This document shows, piece by piece, positions 40,634 to 49,180 of a stretch of 52,631 nucleotides of DNA. The DNA lies in assembly GCA_913061215.1 (NCBI GenBank), contig CAJXSQ010000002.1:1-52631 (forward strand), written 5' to 3'. How positions within the stretch are numbered: the stretch's first letter is position 1; every line of letters begins with the position of its first letter. A model generated the notes under the pieces. It did not search any database. It had not been told where the DNA came from and was given only the letters and a program-made list of their open reading frames with translations. The position numbers and the translations under genes were made by a program. The DNA is from an uncultured Synechococcus sp. GTDB taxonomy: Bacteria; Cyanobacteriota; Cyanobacteriia; PCC-6307; Cyanobiaceae.

Positions 40634-42061
40634 GTGATCGCCACCGCCCCGCCGGAAGCCGGCGCCTTCGACAGCCGCTGGACGGCCTCGCTGGAAGACC
40701 TGCTCGCCTGCGGACGGGCCGCCGGGGCTGATCTGGTGGAGGTGTTCCTGGAGCGCACCGACCACCTGGGCGTTCTGGCGGAGCAGGACACGATCACCAG
40801 CGTGACCCCGGCCTTCGGCATGGGAGCCGGCATCCGGGTGTTCCGCGATCGCCGCGACGGCTTCGTGAGCACCAACGACCTCAGCCCCGCCGGCCTGCGC
40901 CGGGCCCTGGAACAGGCTCTGGGCATGCTCGGCCTGGAGCCCTCCGCCAACGGCCGCAGCGGCTTCGACGGACTGCCGGCGCTGCGCGACTTCGCCGCAG
41001 CCAAGACCGACTGGTTGCAGCGCTGCCCGCAGCTTCAGGAAGCCACCGGCCGCCTGCTGGAGGGCACCGATCAACTGCAGCGGCAGGGCAGCCATCTGCA
41101 GGCGCGCCGCGGCAGTTACGCCCGCGATTGGCAGGAGGTGCTGGTGGCCGCGAGCGATGGCACCTTCGGCCGCGACATCCGCCTGCATCAGTCGGTGGGG
41201 CTGAATGTGCTCGCCGCCGATGGTGAGCACCGGGCCGGTGTGGGTCGCCGCTACGGCACCGCTGATCAACCCGATGATCTGCGCCGCTGGGATGCCACAG
41301 CCTCCGCCGCTGAGGTGTGCGCCAGCGCCGGCACGATGCTCTACGCCGACTACGTGGAAGCCGGCCAGATGCCGGCGGTGCTGGCCAACCGCTTCGGCGG
41401 CGTGATTTTCCACGAGGCCTGCGGCCACCTGCTGGAAACCACCCAGGTGGAGCGCGGCACCACCCCCTTTGCCGAACGGGTGGGCGAGGTGATCGCCCAC
41501 GAGGCCGTCACCGCCATTGATGAGGGCCTCACCGGCGGAGCTTTCGGTTCGCTCTCCATGGACGACGAAGGCATGGAAGCGCAGCGCACCGTGCTGATCG
41601 AGAACGGTGTGCTGAAGCGCTTCATCAGCGATCGGGCCGGTGAGATGCGCACCGGCCACGCCCGCACCGGCAGCGGCCGTCGCCAGAGCCACACCTTCGC
41701 GGCGGCCAGCCGCATGCGCAACACCTACATCGCCGCCGGGCCGCACACACCCGAGCAACTGATCGCTTCGGTGGAGCGTGGCCTCTACTGCAAATCGATG
41801 GGTGGCGGCAGCGTGGGCCCCACCGGCCAGTTCAACTTCGCCGTGGAGGAGGCCTACCTGATCGAAAACGGCAAGCTCACCAAACCGGTGAAGGGCGCCA
41901 CCCTGATCGGCGAAGCCAAGGAGGTGATGCCGCGCATCTCGATGTGCGCCAACGATCTTGAACTGGCGGCCGGGTTCTGCGGCTCGGTGAGCGGCAGCAT
42001 CTTCGTGACCGTGGGTCAGCCCCACATCAAGGTGGATTCGATCACGGTGGGAGGCCGTTGA
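40634..42061 (+). CDS. tldD: TldD-family metalloprotease
   Basis: [14 protein letters not shown] (HExxxH) and TldD-like [28 protein letters not shown] end. Confidence 0.9.
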
Positions 42062-42063
42062 GC

Positions 42064-43443
42064 ATGAGCGAACAGCAGAACAGCAACGGCCTCAACGCTG
42101 AACACCTGCGCAGCAGCCTCGAGCAAATCGCCGCGGCCAACGGCATCCAGCGCTGGGATCTGGGCGCCGCCTGCTCCACGGACATCTCCGTGCAGGTGGA
42201 TCGCGGCGAACCCAAACAGATGAAGGGGGCCCAGCGCAGTTCGATCACGGTGCGGGTGTGGAACGAGCAGGGGCTGGTGGGAGTGACCAGCACCTCCGAT
42301 CTGAGCGGATCAGGCCTGGAGCGCGCCCTCACCGGCGCCAAGGACGCCAGCGCCTTCGGCAATGCCGACGACATCCCGGCCTTCTCACCCCTGGCCACCG
42401 CTCCTCTGGCGGAGCTGCACCAACCGATCCACGCGCCGCAGGGCATCCTGCGCCTGCTGGACACCCTCAAGGGGGCCGAACAGGACCTGCTGGGCCGCCA
42501 TGCCGCGATCAGCACCGTGCCTTACAACGGCCTGGCCGAACGCAGCAGCGAGCGGATCTACCTCAACAGCGATGGTGCCTGCCGCCAGCAACAGCTGAGC
42601 ACCGCCAGCCTCTACCTCTACGCCCGCGCCGAGGAAACCGGCCGCAAACCCCGCAGCGCCGGAGCCGTGCGCCTGGCCTATGGCGCCGGTGAGCTCGACG
42701 TGGATGGCTGCGTGAACGAGGCGGCCGAGCGCACGATCAGCCATCTCGACTACGCCCCGATCGACACCGGCCGCTACACCTGCGTGTTCAGCCCCGAGGC
42801 GTTCCTCGATCTGGTGGGTGCCTTCAGCAACCTGTTCAACGCCCGCGCCGTGCTCGATGGGGTGAGCCTGAGCCATCGCGACTCGATCGGCGAGACGCTC
42901 GCGGTGCCGTTCCTGGACATCCACGACAACGGCCTGCACCCGGCCAACATCGGCGCCTCCGCCTTCGATGGCGAGGGCACCCCCACCCGCCGCCTCGCCC
43001 TGCTGGAAGGGGGCGTGCTGCGCAACTTCCTCCACTCGGAAGCCACAGCCCGTGCCTTCGGCGTTGCCCCAACCGGCCACGCCGGGCTCGGCGCCAAGGT
43101 GTCGGTGGGACCCGACTGGTTCGAGATCGGCCCCACCCCGGGCAGCAACGGCGGTGAGAGCGGCCTGGATCGCTTCAAGGCCGGCCAGCCGATCGTGTGG
43201 ATCGATTCGCTCTCGGCCCTGCACGCCGGCGTGAAGGCCAGCCAGGGCTCCTTCTCGCTGCCCTTCGATGGCTGGTTGATCAGCGGCGGTGAACCCCGCT
43301 CGATCGAAGCCGCCACGGTGGCCGGCGACATCCGCCAGGTGCTCAAGGCCATCGTGGGCTTTGAGGGCGAGGCGAAGGTCACCCCCGATGGCCTCTGCCC
43401 GATGGTGTGGGTGGAGGGTCTTTCGGTCACCGGCGAGGCCTGA
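42064..43443 (+). CDS. pmbA: TldE/PmbA-family protein
   Basis: Lacks HExxxH; FEIGPTPGSNGGESGLDRFKAGQPIVWIDSLSALHAGVKASQGSFSLPFDGWLISGGE. Confidence 0.88.
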   Translation: MSEQQNSNGLNAEHLRSSLEQIAAANGIQRWDLGAACSTDISVQVDRGEPKQMKGAQRSSITVRVWNEQGLVGVTSTSDLSGSGLERALTGAKDASAFGNADDIPAFSPLATAPLAELHQPIHAPQGILRLLDTLKGAEQDLLGRHAAISTVPYNGLAERSSERIYLNSDGACRQQQLSTASLYLYARAEETGRKPRSAGAVRLAYGAGELDVDGCVNEAAERTISHLDYAPIDTGRYTCVFSPEAFLDLVGAFSNLFNARAVLDGVSLSHRDSIGETLAVPFLDIHDNGLHPANIGASAFDGEGTPTRRLALLEGGVLRNFLHSEATARAFGVAPTGHAGLGAKVSVGPDWFEIGPTPGSNGGESGLDRFKAGQPIVWIDSLSALHAGVKASQGSFSLPFDGWLISGGEPRSIEAATVAGDIRQVLKAIVGFEGEAKVTPDGLCPMVWVEGLSVTGEA

Positions 43444-43457
43444 GGCAGGGAGAGGTG

Positions 43458-44873
43458 ATGGCGCGGCTGGGATGGGTGAGCCTGAGCCCGGCACTCGCAC
43501 CGCCCGGGTCGGTTGAGGGCCTGGAGCTCAACACCTTCCCCTCGCTTGAGGCGCTGCTGGAGCAGCCGCAAGGCTGTGATGTGGTGGTGCTGGATGGGCC
43601 GCCGGAGGCGATGGGTACGGCGGCACGACGCCTGCGGGCTGATCACCGTTATCAACTGGGGCTGATCTACACCTCCCGCGCCGGCGATCCCTGGTGCGCC
43701 GCCCTCTGCGACGGCGAGCTTCCCGGCGACGGCGCAGCAATCGCAACGGCCTGGCAGCAATGGCAGGAACGGCAGCCCCTGTTCAACCGCGGCCAGGCGC
43801 CCGAGGGGGTGGATCAGAGCCTGCTCTGCTGGCTGTGGCAACGACCCGGCGCCGCCATCCAGCCGGTGCGCGATCCCGGCCACGCCCAGATCTACCGCTA
43901 CCCGCTGGTGGAGGCGATCACGGCCGACGAGCGCCTGAACAGCGACGGCTGGCTGCGGCAGAAGGAACAGGAGAACCTGCTGGAGGGCGGTGATCTGATC
44001 GACCGGATCCGCCAGTGCCCCGCCTGCAGCTCGAGCCGCCTGAACTATGTGGATGTGTGCCCGGAATGTCACGGGCTCGACATCGTGCGGCAACCGTCGC
44101 TGCACTGCTTCGTGTGTGGCCATGTAGCACCCCAGCAGAACTTCCTCAAGGGCGATGCGCTGGTGTGCCCGAACTGCCTCAGCCAGCTGCGCCATATCGG
44201 CAGCGACTACGACCGGCCGCTGGAGAACTACCGCTGCCGCGGCTGCGGAGCCTTCTTCGTGGATGCGGATGTGGACGTGCGCTGCCTCGACTGCTGCGAC
44301 GTGAATCAGCCGAATGACCTGCGCGTGCGCGAAATCCGCAGCTTCCGGTTGAGTGAAGCCGGTGCCCTGGCCTGCCGGCAGGGCCTCGGCGATAACGGCG
44401 CGATCGGTAGCTACTTCCGCAGGCTGAAACTGATGGACCGGGGTGACTTCCTGAAGGCCCTCGACTGGCAGATGGCAATTGCCAGGCGTTACGGCAAGAG
44501 CAGCGGCAGTGCCATCGCCGCGCTGCTGGGGGTGCGCATCGAGAACATCGAGCAATTGTTCGTGGATGTGGGGGAGGCGCGCGCCACAGCCATGCTCGAG
44601 GGCCTGCTGGAGCGGCTGCAGCAGATCATCCGCGACACAGACCGCTGCATGCGCGGCCGCGAGGACACCCTCTGGTTGCTGCTGCCTCACACCTCCGCCA
44701 GGGGCCTGGATCGTGTGCGGGAACGGCTGCAGGAGGGACTGGAGCGAATCCAGAGTAGTGCTGGTGCAGCTGAACTCAGCCTGAAATTCGTGGGCTGTGT
44801 TCTGCCCGAGCAGATCCAGGATGATGAGAATGCTGCCTTGATGCTGGCGCGCCTCGCGGGCGATCTCCGCTGA
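43458..44873 (+). CDS. TackOD1-like multi-zinc-ribbon protein with degenerate GGDEF-like C-terminal domain
   Basis: Cys motifs CPAC, CPEC, CFVC, CPNC, CRGC, CLDCC; C-terminal DTDRCMRGREDTLWLLLPHT resembles the R-GGDEF region but lacks GGDEF. Confidence 0.7.
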   Translation: MARLGWVSLSPALAPPGSVEGLELNTFPSLEALLEQPQGCDVVVLDGPPEAMGTAARRLRADHRYQLGLIYTSRAGDPWCAALCDGELPGDGAAIATAWQQWQERQPLFNRGQAPEGVDQSLLCWLWQRPGAAIQPVRDPGHAQIYRYPLVEAITADERLNSDGWLRQKEQENLLEGGDLIDRIRQCPACSSSRLNYVDVCPECHGLDIVRQPSLHCFVCGHVAPQQNFLKGDALVCPNCLSQLRHIGSDYDRPLENYRCRGCGAFFVDADVDVRCLDCCDVNQPNDLRVREIRSFRLSEAGALACRQGLGDNGAIGSYFRRLKLMDRGDFLKALDWQMAIARRYGKSSGSAIAALLGVRIENIEQLFVDVGEARATAMLEGLLERLQQIIRDTDRCMRGREDTLWLLLPHTSARGLDRVRERLQEGLERIQSSAGAAELSLKFVGCVLPEQIQDDENAALMLARLAGDLR

Positions 44874-44894
44874 ACCGGGCGGCCTCAGTCAGCC

Positions 44895-46235
44895 ATGGAA
44901 CCCGTACTGGAACAGGCCCTGAATCTGCCCCTCCTGCTGGAGCAGCTGCGTGGGGAAGACGGCTTGGCGCTCCTGCTTCTGCAGCTCTTTCCACTCTTCC
45001 TGGTAGTGGAATTACCCCTCACCCTGGTGGTCGTTCTGGGGGTTCTGCGCTGGTGGATCCGCGAGCAGACGCTACCCCCGAGGCGGTCCCTCTACCGGCC
45101 GCGGGTGTCATGCCTGATCACCTGCTACAGCGAAGGGGCCGATGTGCGTAAAACGCTGGAAACCCTGTGCGAGCAGACCTACCCCGGTGAGATTGAGCTG
45201 ATCCCGGTGGTGGATGGAGCTGCTGCCAATCAGCACACACTGGCAGCCGTACGCGGATTTGAACTGCGCGAGGAATGGCGCCGCACCCGCCGCGTGCGGC
45301 CGATTGCCAAGTGGCAGCGGGGTGGCCGCGTGTCGTCGCTCAATGCAGGACTGTCGATGAGCACCGGCAGCATCGTGATGGCTCTGGATGGCGACACCTC
45401 CTTTGACAACACGATGGTGAGCGCGATGGTGCGGCATTTCGAAGATCCGAATGTGCCAGCGGTGGCCGGCAGCCTACGGATCCGCAACACCTGGACCTCT
45501 CTGGCCACAGCGCTGCAGGCAGTCGAGTATCTGATTTCAATTCAGATGGCCAAGACAGGCTTGAGTGAATGGAATCTTGTGAATAATATTTCTGGCGCTT
45601 TCGGTGCATTCCGCCGCGAAATCATTGAGCAGCTTGGCGGCTGGGATACCCACAGCGCCGAAGATCTCGACATCACGCTGCGGATCAAGAGTTACTTCGG
45701 GCGGCATCGCCAACTGCGCATTCCGTTCGAGCCAAGAGCCATCGGACATACCGATGGTCCCACAAGCATGGTGGGCCTGCTGAAGCAGCGATTGCGCTGG
45801 GATGGCGATCTGCTGTTTCTGTATGCAAGGAAACATTCTGGCAGCATCGCTCCCCGGTTGATGGGCTGGCCCAACTTTCTGATGACTGTGATCAGCGGCC
45901 TCTTCATCCAGGTTGTTCTTCCCTTCATCATCGTTGGTTATACGGCGATAACAGCGATCACCTTGCCCTGGCCCACCGTGCTGGCACTGTCCGTGCTGGT
46001 GTATGTGGTGTATCTAGTGGTACTCAGCTTGCAGTTTCTGCTGATGCTTCTGCTGGTGTCCGAGCGTCCTCAGCAGGATGTGAGGCTGATTCCGATTCTG
46101 CCGCTTTTCCCGATAGCCATGCTGCTGATCCGCTGCTGGAGCGCTGTGGCGATCCTCAACGAACTGTGGCGTCGCAGCCACGAGGAATCGTCGATGGCCC
46201 CCTGGTGGGTGCTGCGCCGCGCAACGCGCTTCTGA
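44895..46235 (+). CDS. Processive family 2 glycosyltransferase (BcsA/PgaC/Alg8-like polysaccharide synthase)
   Basis: N-terminal and C-terminal TM helices; VMALDGDTSFDN (DxD), SAEDLDITLRI (ED), KQRLRWDGD (QxxRW). Confidence 0.9.
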   Translation: MEPVLEQALNLPLLLEQLRGEDGLALLLLQLFPLFLVVELPLTLVVVLGVLRWWIREQTLPPRRSLYRPRVSCLITCYSEGADVRKTLETLCEQTYPGEIELIPVVDGAAANQHTLAAVRGFELREEWRRTRRVRPIAKWQRGGRVSSLNAGLSMSTGSIVMALDGDTSFDNTMVSAMVRHFEDPNVPAVAGSLRIRNTWTSLATALQAVEYLISIQMAKTGLSEWNLVNNISGAFGAFRREIIEQLGGWDTHSAEDLDITLRIKSYFGRHRQLRIPFEPRAIGHTDGPTSMVGLLKQRLRWDGDLLFLYARKHSGSIAPRLMGWPNFLMTVISGLFIQVVLPFIIVGYTAITAITLPWPTVLALSVLVYVVYLVVLSLQFLLMLLLVSERPQQDVRLIPILPLFPIAMLLIRCWSAVAILNELWRRSHEESSMAPWWVLRRATRF

Positions 46236-47069
46236 ATGCCCCGGTTGATGCTGTTCCAGCCCGCTGCCACTGTTCTGCTCAGCCTGCTGCTCTCGGGCTG
46301 CGCCCGCCAACCGTGGAGCCAGGGCACGTACATCTGGGACAGTCGGGCGCTGCTGAATCAACAACAGCGGCCGCGGGAGCTGCAACAGCTTCGGCAGCAG
46401 GGGATGACCCATCTGCTGGTGGGACTTTCGGCCGCGCAAGCGCGCGACCCGAACAGTCCTGCGGCCCTGAACGCCCTGGTGGGGCAGGCCCACGCCAGCG
46501 GCCAACGGGTGCTGCTGCTGCTGGGTGATCCGGCCTGGATCACCCCAACCCAGCGGTTTGAGCTGGTGGCGCTGATCCGCCGCTTCCGCCACGTGCCCTT
46601 CGACGGCCTCCACCTGGACCTGGAGGTGGAACAGCTGGGCTGGCCGGTTCCCGCCGAACGGCTGCAGCAGTGGCTCGACACGCTGACGGTGGCCCGGCAG
46701 GCCAGTCCCTGGCCGCTGAGCATCTCCTCCCACCCGCGTTGGTTCGAGCCAGCAAGCGGCGAGGAGCGTGCCACGGAACCCTGCGTTCCCTGCAACCTGC
46801 AGGGATTGGCATCGGTGAGCCTGATGCTCTATTCACGCAACACGGCTCGCGTGAACGAGCGAACCCTGGCGATCGCCCGGCGCTGGCCGCAGCTGCACTT
46901 CCGGCTGGCTCAGAGCGTGGAAGCCGGACTGGAGCCCGGACTCAGCTGGCATGGCAGCAGCGCTGGCGCCCTGCAGCTGCAGATGCAACGCTGGCGCGGT
47001 GCATTAGCTGCGGATGGCATCGGCGGAATCGACTGGCAGGACTGGGCGGCATACCCCAAGGAGCCCTGA
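46236..47069 (+). CDS. Putative lipoprotein with glycosidase-like barrel motif
   Basis: Signal peptide with lipobox LLLSGC; FDGLHLDLEVEQLGW resembles the DGxxLDxE motif of GH18-like barrels. Confidence 0.55.
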   Translation: MPRLMLFQPAATVLLSLLLSGCARQPWSQGTYIWDSRALLNQQQRPRELQQLRQQGMTHLLVGLSAAQARDPNSPAALNALVGQAHASGQRVLLLLGDPAWITPTQRFELVALIRRFRHVPFDGLHLDLEVEQLGWPVPAERLQQWLDTLTVARQASPWPLSISSHPRWFEPASGEERATEPCVPCNLQGLASVSLMLYSRNTARVNERTLAIARRWPQLHFRLAQSVEAGLEPGLSWHGSSAGALQLQMQRWRGALAADGIGGIDWQDWAAYPKEP

Positions 47070-47072
47070 ACG

Positions 47073-48101
47073 ATGAAGGTGCGCTTCGCCAGCAGCAAGG
47101 AGCGAGCCCCGGATCAGGACAACGGCCTGCGGGTGCTCTACGGCCCAGGCAAACGGGTGGCCTACAAGCTGCGCTGGTATCTGATCGTGGCGCTGGTGAG
47201 TTCGCCACTGCTGTGGATCGCGGGCCGGCTGCTGTTCGACGAGCTGCGCCCGGAGATGCCGGCCCAGCTGTCGGTGCCCAGCACGGAACTGCGGGCCAGC
47301 GTGAGCGGCACCATCAGCGACCTGCCGGTGAAGACCGGCCAGACGGTGAAACCCGGGCAACTGCTGGTGCAGCTCGACAACCCGGAATGGCGCCTGCGGC
47401 TTGAACAACTGCAACCGGGCGATCTGCACCGCGATGACAGCCTGGGCCGATCTGCGGAAGCGATCGCCGCCAGCACGGTGAAGCTGCAGGACCAGATGGT
47501 GCACCTCTACAAGGGCCTGCAACGCCAGGGCGGCCTGAGCTCGGCCGAACTGCTGCAATCGGAAGTGGAGCTCAACGCCCAGAAACTGGCGCTGCTGGAG
47601 CTGCAGCGGCGGCTGCGCCAGGACGACTTCCCTTATGAGGGCGAGCCGATCCAGAACCTGCGCGATACCCGTGAGCGCGAGTGGATCAAGGGCCGCATCA
47701 AGCTGCTCAGCCTCCGCTCCGGCAGTGCTGGACGGGTGGCGGAGGTGCTGGTGAACCAGGGCGAGAACGTGGGACCCGGCACGCTGTTGATGCGGATCGA
47801 GCAGGCGGAGGAACCGCTGCTGTGGGTGTATCTGCAACCCAAGCAGGGACGTGAGGCCCGCCCGGGCCAACTGTTGGAGGTGGAAATGCCGGATGGCAGC
47901 TGGCTGGAGGCCGCGGTGATCAGTCAACCGGATCTGGCGCGGCGGCTGCCGCCGGGACTGAGCAGCGGTGTGGGGGGCAACAACCTGGCCCTGCAGGTGC
48001 CTGCTCGCTTTCTCGAACCGCTGCCGGCGGCCTGGCGCGTGGATCAACTGCCGCTGCGGGTGCGGTTCCCGCTGCGCTGGCCGCGCCTCTGGCCAGGCTG
48101 A
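47073..48101 (+). CDS. HlyD-family / Alg44-like periplasmic adaptor (membrane-fusion) protein
   Basis: Single N-terminal TM; biotinyl-lipoyl-like halves LRASVSGTISDLPVKTGQTVKPGQLLVQLDN and SGSAGRVAEVLVNQGENVGPGTLLMRIEQ. Confidence 0.82.
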   Translation: MKVRFASSKERAPDQDNGLRVLYGPGKRVAYKLRWYLIVALVSSPLLWIAGRLLFDELRPEMPAQLSVPSTELRASVSGTISDLPVKTGQTVKPGQLLVQLDNPEWRLRLEQLQPGDLHRDDSLGRSAEAIAASTVKLQDQMVHLYKGLQRQGGLSSAELLQSEVELNAQKLALLELQRRLRQDDFPYEGEPIQNLRDTREREWIKGRIKLLSLRSGSAGRVAEVLVNQGENVGPGTLLMRIEQAEEPLLWVYLQPKQGREARPGQLLEVEMPDGSWLEAAVISQPDLARRLPPGLSSGVGGNNLALQVPARFLEPLPAAWRVDQLPLRVRFPLRWPRLWPG

Positions 48102-48118: not shown

Positions 48119-49180
48119 ATGAAGATCCTGTTCTGGGGCACGCCGGCCTACGCCGTGCCCAGCCTTGATGCGCTGGTGGCCGCCGGCCATGAACTGGTGG
48201 GTGTGGTGACCCAGCCCGATCGCCGCCGCGGCCGCGGCAAGACCCTGATGCCCTCCCCGGTGAAAGCACGGGCCCTGGAACTGGGGCTGCCGGTGTTCAC
48301 ACCCGAGCGGATCCGCCGCGAACCGGATTGCCAACGCCAACTCGCCGATCTGGGGGCGGATGCCTACGTGGTGGTGGCCTTCGGGCAGATCCTGCCGCCG
48401 GAGGTGCTGGCCCAGCCGCCGCTGGGCTGCTGGAACGGCCATGGCTCACTGCTGCCCCGCTGGCGTGGTGCCGGCCCGATCCAGTGGAGCCTGATCGAAG
48501 GCGACGCCGAGACGGGGGTGGGGATCATGGCGATGGAAGCCGGCCTGGATACCGGGCCTGTGCTGCTGGAGCGCTCCCTGGCGATCGGGCTCACGGACAA
48601 CGCCCAGCAGCTGGCCGGCCGCCTGGCGGCACTCACCGCTGAGCTGCTGGTGGAAGCCATGCCTCGGATCGAAGCGGCTGGCCCCGGCCCGGAAGCGGAG
48701 CGGCTGGCACGCCTGGGGGTCCGCCACCAGAGCGAGGAGGGCATGACCTACGCGCGCATGCTCAGCAAGGACGACTTCCAGATCAACTGGACGCAATCGG
48801 CACTGGCAATTCACCGGCGGGTGATGGGGCTGTACCCCGGGGCCACCAGCACCTGGCAGGGCAAGCGGCTCAAGCTGCTGGCCACCGAGCCGCTGGTGCA
48901 ACGCCTGGCCGATCAGCTCAGCCCGGAGGCAGCGGCGCTGGCGCAGCGTTGGGGCATGCCACCAGGCAGCGCTCCGGCAGCCGATGCACCCGCGGGGGGC
49001 ACGGTGCTGGAACTGGTGCCGGGTGTGGGGCTGGTGGTGGCCAGCGGTGGCTGCCCGCTGCTGCTGCGGGAAGCCCAGCTGGAAGGGAAGAAAGCGGCGG
49101 CCGGCACGGCTCTGCTCCAACAGCTGCAGGCCAGTCCCGGCGATCAGCTGGGAGCCGGCGCTCAGGCGATCAGCAGCTGA
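48119..49180 (+). CDS. fmt: Methionyl-tRNA formyltransferase
   Basis: MKILFWGTPAYAVPSLDAL; CWNGHGSLLPRWRGAGPIQWSLIEGDAETGVGIMAMEAGLDTGPVL. Confidence 0.95.
   Translation: MKILFWGTPAYAVPSLDALVAAGHELVGVVTQPDRRRGRGKTLMPSPVKARALELGLPVFTPERIRREPDCQRQLADLGADAYVVVAFGQILPPEVLAQPPLGCWNGHGSLLPRWRGAGPIQWSLIEGDAETGVGIMAMEAGLDTGPVLLERSLAIGLTDNAQQLAGRLAALTAELLVEAMPRIEAAGPGPEAERLARLGVRHQSEEGMTYARMLSKDDFQINWTQSALAIHRRVMGLYPGATSTWQGKRLKLLATEPLVQRLADQLSPEAAALAQRWGMPPGSAPAADAPAGGTVLELVPGVGLVVASGGCPLLLREAQLEGKKAAAGTALLQQLQASPGDQLGAGAQAISS

Follow-up and report, generated by a model that had tools for sequence, protein, structure and literature searches.

What does a compact set of four genes make when it lies between pmbA and fmt in a freshwater picocyanobacterium, how might it be controlled, and where did it come from? 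The question is raised by a 52,631-nucleotide stretch of DNA (the window) from an uncultured Synechococcus sp., whose genome is available as a draft of 1.9 Mb in 181 contigs (G000). The four genes, here called A to D, all lie on the plus strand with intergenic gaps of 21 (A/B), 0 (B/C) and 3 nt (C/D); our ORF calls reproduce both the coordinates and the gaps described in an earlier interpretation made from the letters alone (the sequence-only reading). B alone among the cassette genes has a lower GC content (0.60 versus 0.68), and the compositional signal for an island is weak.

Genes of the cassette and of its insertion site, with positions in the window and the product or domain assigned to each.
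Feature	Position	Strand	Description
Gene A	43458..44873	+	471 aa; TackOD1 and degenerate GGDEF (Pfam)
Gene B	44895..46235	+	446 aa; membrane processive-type GT2 glycosyltransferase
Gene C	46236..47069	+	277 aa; lipoprotein, predicted TIM-barrel domain of glycosidase type
Gene D	47073..48101	+	342 aa; HlyD-type periplasmic adaptor, one N-terminal membrane anchor
pmbA, left flank of insertion site	42058..43443	+	PmbA/TldD domain (Pfam)
fmt, right flank	48119..49180	+	formyl transferase domain (Pfam)

Single-sequence scans with A on genome and viral contigs returned no match, and an alignment was required to detect its relatives. With about 85,000 species genomes scanned, 484 relatives of A were found; 96 loci were compared, comprising the window, loci taken from the best 80 of the 484, and other loci. 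The order A-B-C-D recurs in 82 of these 96, mostly in Pseudomonas and its relatives, and the clustering is therefore not due to chance. Co-occurrence of the four genes in other genomes, which had been put forward as a check, is thus borne out. The remaining loci include several that are interrupted by contig ends and others that lack C. Among cyanobacteria TackOD1 is rare, being present in 4 of 60 relatives (the source genome included) and, among 386 genomes spanning the phylum, exceeding the cut-off in 3. A 2.1 Mb gammaproteobacterial genome (G727:C1; L121, L135, L137) encodes TackOD1 twice, once within an A-B-D operon.

Pfam places TackOD1 (PF18551) at residues 116–298 of A (E 2.1e-64) and a GGDEF match at residues 331–438 (E 4.2e-6). 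Both domains had been recognised by the sequence-only reading, in which the zinc ribbon went unnamed; it corresponds to the already described TackOD1. The N-terminus forms an alpha/beta domain with receiver-like strand order. A GGDEF fold for the C-terminal domain is indicated by a profile match to PDB 6zxm (E 2.8e-11) and by Foldseek comparison of the predicted structure (AlphaFold pLDDT 89; structure predictions were run on alignments without plasmid-derived rows). Public annotation names the homologues of A 'diguanylate cyclase', and with its GGDEF fold A might be imagined as an active enzyme that raises c-di-GMP for other targets. The canonical GG[DE]EF motif, however, is missing from all 93 homologues, and other residues stand where the metal-binding Asp residues would be; with the active site lost throughout, we rejected this candidate as highly improbable.

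The inhibitory site has been kept. R392 is present in 90, D395 in 92 and R423 in 87 of the 93 homologues, with all three in 85, and R392 and D395 are among eight of the 123 GGDEF-domain columns that reach 95% identity (domain mean, 63%). The RxxD motif is still found in homologues at only 25–29% identity; it is lost in 3 of the 93, and in the cyanobacterial copy of G020 a His replaces the Arg of the inhibitory site. The spacing of R392, D395 and R423 equals that of the corresponding PleD residues, which we take to be R359, D362 and R390. With the ligand site kept and catalysis lost, A is probably a c-di-GMP receptor that acts in the manner of PelD, BcsE or MxdA of Shewanella, and the earlier suggestion that a zinc-ribbon protein stands in for c-di-GMP control has to be given up. 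In PelD and BcsE a degenerate GGDEF domain binds c-di-GMP via a retained RxxD inhibitory site and controls an EPS synthase (PMC8461298); A resembles them in keeping the GGDEF fold, the RxxD and a second Arg without the catalytic residues. The architectures differ, in that the cassette has no PelE/F/G partners, PelD contains a GAF domain and membrane helices where A contains TackOD1, and BcsE serves BcsA whereas A carries TackOD1. TackOD1 itself has been described in archaeal signalling proteins, including response regulators, and in type IV pilus loci, with a function called 'obscure' (PMC5847659), and our literature search, covering few subscription journals, found the domain named only in that survey. 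The Thaumarchaeota proteins share the zinc ribbon and its conserved CxxC motifs but are stand-alone or REC-fused (PMC5847659), whereas TackOD1 in A is joined to a degenerate GGDEF domain and encoded beside a GT2.

Gene B has the motifs of a processive GT2 enzyme, namely D107, D165xD167, D257 and Q298-R299-x-R301-W302, which are invariant or nearly so in 91 homologues, and hydrophobic stretches flank its catalytic domain on both sides. Its nearest families are PgaC/IcaA, NodC and the chitin or hyaluronan synthases. The best NCBIfam model, PgaC/IcaA (TIGR03937), scores 148 bits against a cut-off of 422, and because the cut-off was reached for none of the NCBIfam equivalog models, the family leaves the sugar undecided. 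PNAG synthase was rejected on the same score and on the absence of PgaA, PgaB and PgaD genes from the cassette.

No PilZ domain was found by Pfam in either B or D, the latter containing only HlyD/biotin-lipoyl domains, which agrees with the earlier statement that the cassette has none. A GT2 is also paired with a membrane-fusion adaptor in the alginate system (Alg8/Alg44) and in the rhizobial mixed-linkage beta-glucan system (BgsA/BgsB), whose GT2 has a C-terminal region that binds c-di-GMP; both were previously offered as parallels. We rejected the alginate assignment since D lacks PilZ, and the cassette differs from both systems in that its regulatory input resides in a separate TackOD1-GGDEF protein; given the inhibitory site of A, the nearer functional parallels are MxdA, PelD and BcsE. 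Cyanobacterial Xcs cellulose synthesis employs a GT2-PilZ protein (XcsA), an HlyD protein (XcsB) and an endoglucanase (XcsC), with a proposed TolC exit (PMC12430437), and the cassette likewise combines a GT2, an HlyD protein and a hydrolase-like protein with a proposed TolC exit. Assignment to Xcs/Bcs cellulose synthases was nevertheless rejected, as B has no PilZ whereas the other GT2 of the source genome, to which B is only 23% identical, does. This second GT2-PilZ gene lies on contig C32 (L170 1786-6953) beside an HlyD gene and a CHASE-PAS-GGDEF gene, in what appears from its gene content to be an Xcs-like, second c-di-GMP-linked polysaccharide locus.

Gene C matches no Pfam family and its profile found no convincing relative in PDB or Pfam. 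A lipobox-like LLLSGC lies downstream of a hydrophobic stretch, and the protein is predicted with high confidence to form an eight-stranded barrel of the (beta/alpha)8 type. Five residues are invariant in 81 sequences: D128 and E130 are placed after strand 4, Y199 after strand 6, E229 after strand 7 and W267 in strand 8. The predicted barrel fits a glycosidase, mixing features of the GH18 type and of the two-glutamate GH-A type. In Foldseek the TM-score against a GH18 protein reached 0.60; because the search also returned other barrels, with non-glycosidases ranking first, we only infer an enzymatic activity for C.

In 47 of the 82 loci C makes up the C-terminal end of a far longer polypeptide, mostly of 680–840 residues; in both cases put through a domain scan the N-terminal portion gave an OEP/TolC match. 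This fusion associates C with the step at which the pathway crosses the outer membrane. The set of GT2, adaptor and outer-membrane channel is accordingly present, with the channel provided by the TolC-C fusion in proteobacterial copies. Cyanobacterial copies, like many genomes of the P. fluorescens/mandelii type, encode C as a separate protein. The source genome holds four OEP/TolC genes, all unlinked to the cassette, with TolC candidates on contigs C3, C10, C11 and C23.

The sequence-only reading regarded the cassette as an acquired accessory island and proposed comparing the pmbA-fmt interval across relatives. We ran this comparison. pmbA and fmt flank the cassette in the four genomes of this genus that carry TackOD1, namely the source genome, G005, G001 (where the placement was pieced from two contig ends) and G020, and also in S. 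lacustris (L028). In each of the 26 cassette-less relatives with a retrieved fmt locus, fmt comes immediately after pmbA, at a spacing of 0–13 nt save for one at about 170 nt. In a tree of B the cyanobacterial copies form one clade (99/94) within sequences from Pseudomonas, Marinobacter, Vreelandella and Burkholderiaceae, and trees built quickly for A, C and D each contain one cyanobacterial group. The empty sites and the position of this clade inside the Pseudomonadota establish the cassette as acquired, and its donor was apparently a gammaproteobacterium of the Pseudomonas type, as judged from these trees. In G420, which belongs to another genus of the family, the four genes occupy a different locus with a GGDEF-EAL gene on each side. 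This pattern is most simply explained by a single transfer that brought the entire cassette into the family, after which it was lost or moved.

The whole operon is also carried by a mobilizable 29 kb plasmid of Aeromonas caviae (pKAM329_3; L024 13977-19799). This copy and the one in Stutzerimonas degradans are nearly identical in B. The likeness points to recent plasmid-borne transfer and to an operon that is still mobile.

Taken together, we favour, with a probability of roughly 0.7, the reading that the cassette encodes a c-di-GMP-gated, synthase-dependent exopolysaccharide machine with a TolC exit, acquired from gammaproteobacteria. An EPS synthase-type operon had been proposed before, and the GT2 motifs in 91 homologues, the conserved synteny with an HlyD adaptor and the TolC fusion all speak for it; the accompanying idea of export by GT2 and adaptor stands in this respect, having missed the link to TolC in the outer membrane. 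Weighing against the reading are the homologues that depart from the inhibitory site, the likeness of C to non-glycosidase barrels and the scores of B below the equivalog cut-offs. In such a machine, c-di-GMP would bind the inhibitory site of the dead GGDEF domain in the cytoplasmic receptor A, and the TackOD1 zinc ribbon would relay this state to B, presumably by contact between the two proteins. B, which has the motifs for it, would polymerise a nucleotide-sugar and thread the growing chain across the inner membrane. D would span the periplasm to a TolC channel, an assembly to which the fusion points, with the channel for the cyanobacterial cassette being supplied from elsewhere in the genome. 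C may trim or edit the chain in the periplasm.

The closest characterised system in layout and logic, as compared by published description rather than by sequence, is mxdABCD of Shewanella. MxdA of Shewanella oneidensis (SO_4180 in strain MR-1) binds c-di-GMP and is encoded next to the GT2 MxdB and the efflux/adaptor-like MxdC, the locus is required for biofilm formation and aggregation, and MxdD has no known homology reported (PMC3691769, PMC7666153, PMC11395469). This order of effector, GT2 and adaptor equals A, B, (C), D of the window, and mxd, as a possible relative, accounts for the only experimental work on cassette members in the literature searched. The cassette could therefore be a divergent mxd member, that is, an already known system carried into cyanobacteria, for which we would give slightly less than even odds: the matching order by annotation is in its favour, and the lack of any reported homology for MxdD is against it. 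More tentatively, and with the balance leaning against it, the combination of TackOD1-GGDEF, GT2, TolC-barrel and HlyD proteins might represent an undescribed, widespread class of c-di-GMP-gated EPS synthases, with its main distribution in Pseudomonas, that makes a polymer of its own, uses TackOD1 as the transducer from c-di-GMP to the glycosyltransferase and has moved into picocyanobacteria. For an operon of the A-B-C-D make-up, a literature search covering few subscription journals returned only a review of cyanobacterial cellulose and yielded no established name.

An unlikely alternative is that B and D attach sugars to, and export, a product that is not a polymer, such as a glycolipid or a pump substrate, and that A senses zinc or redox state and has nothing to do with c-di-GMP. 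The obscure function of TackOD1 and its presence in response regulators of archaea and in loci for type IV pili (PMC5847659) would accommodate such a role, and D also resembles RND and EmrA adaptors; however, the annotated loci examined contain no transporter or pump gene in the conserved cluster, B has the QxxRW of processive GT2s, and the inhibitory site of A has been selectively retained.

The exopolysaccharide reading gives TackOD1, an orphan zinc-ribbon domain, a concrete and testable role, which would be its first function if the class is indeed undescribed. On the same reading, hundreds of genomes (484 relatives), many of them Pseudomonas, are predicted to make a matrix polymer under c-di-GMP control, and the case illustrates how a picocyanobacterial lineage could gain aggregation by a single transfer.

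Three GGDEF domains with strong matches and one GGDEF-EAL pair are encoded elsewhere in the source genome, so c-di-GMP is likely made there. The pair consists of two adjacent genes on contig C3 (L166 12558-16211), and a similar pair of GAF- and PAS-type GGDEF-EAL genes brackets the cassette in G420 (L020). Across 60 relatives the GGDEF-EAL orthologue does not track with the presence of the cassette, and is therefore not established as a dedicated partner, a point against the c-di-GMP-gated reading. In a distant gammaproteobacterial genome (L142, 5284-11072), A-B-D is followed 14 nt after D by a PAS-GGDEF-EAL gene; this neighbourhood and the one in G420 speak for that reading. Additionally, on a Rhodobacteraceae plasmid (L027 7956-12578) A-B-D is followed by galE (UDP-glucose 4-epimerase), a neighbour that hints that the sugar of that operon may be of the galactose type.
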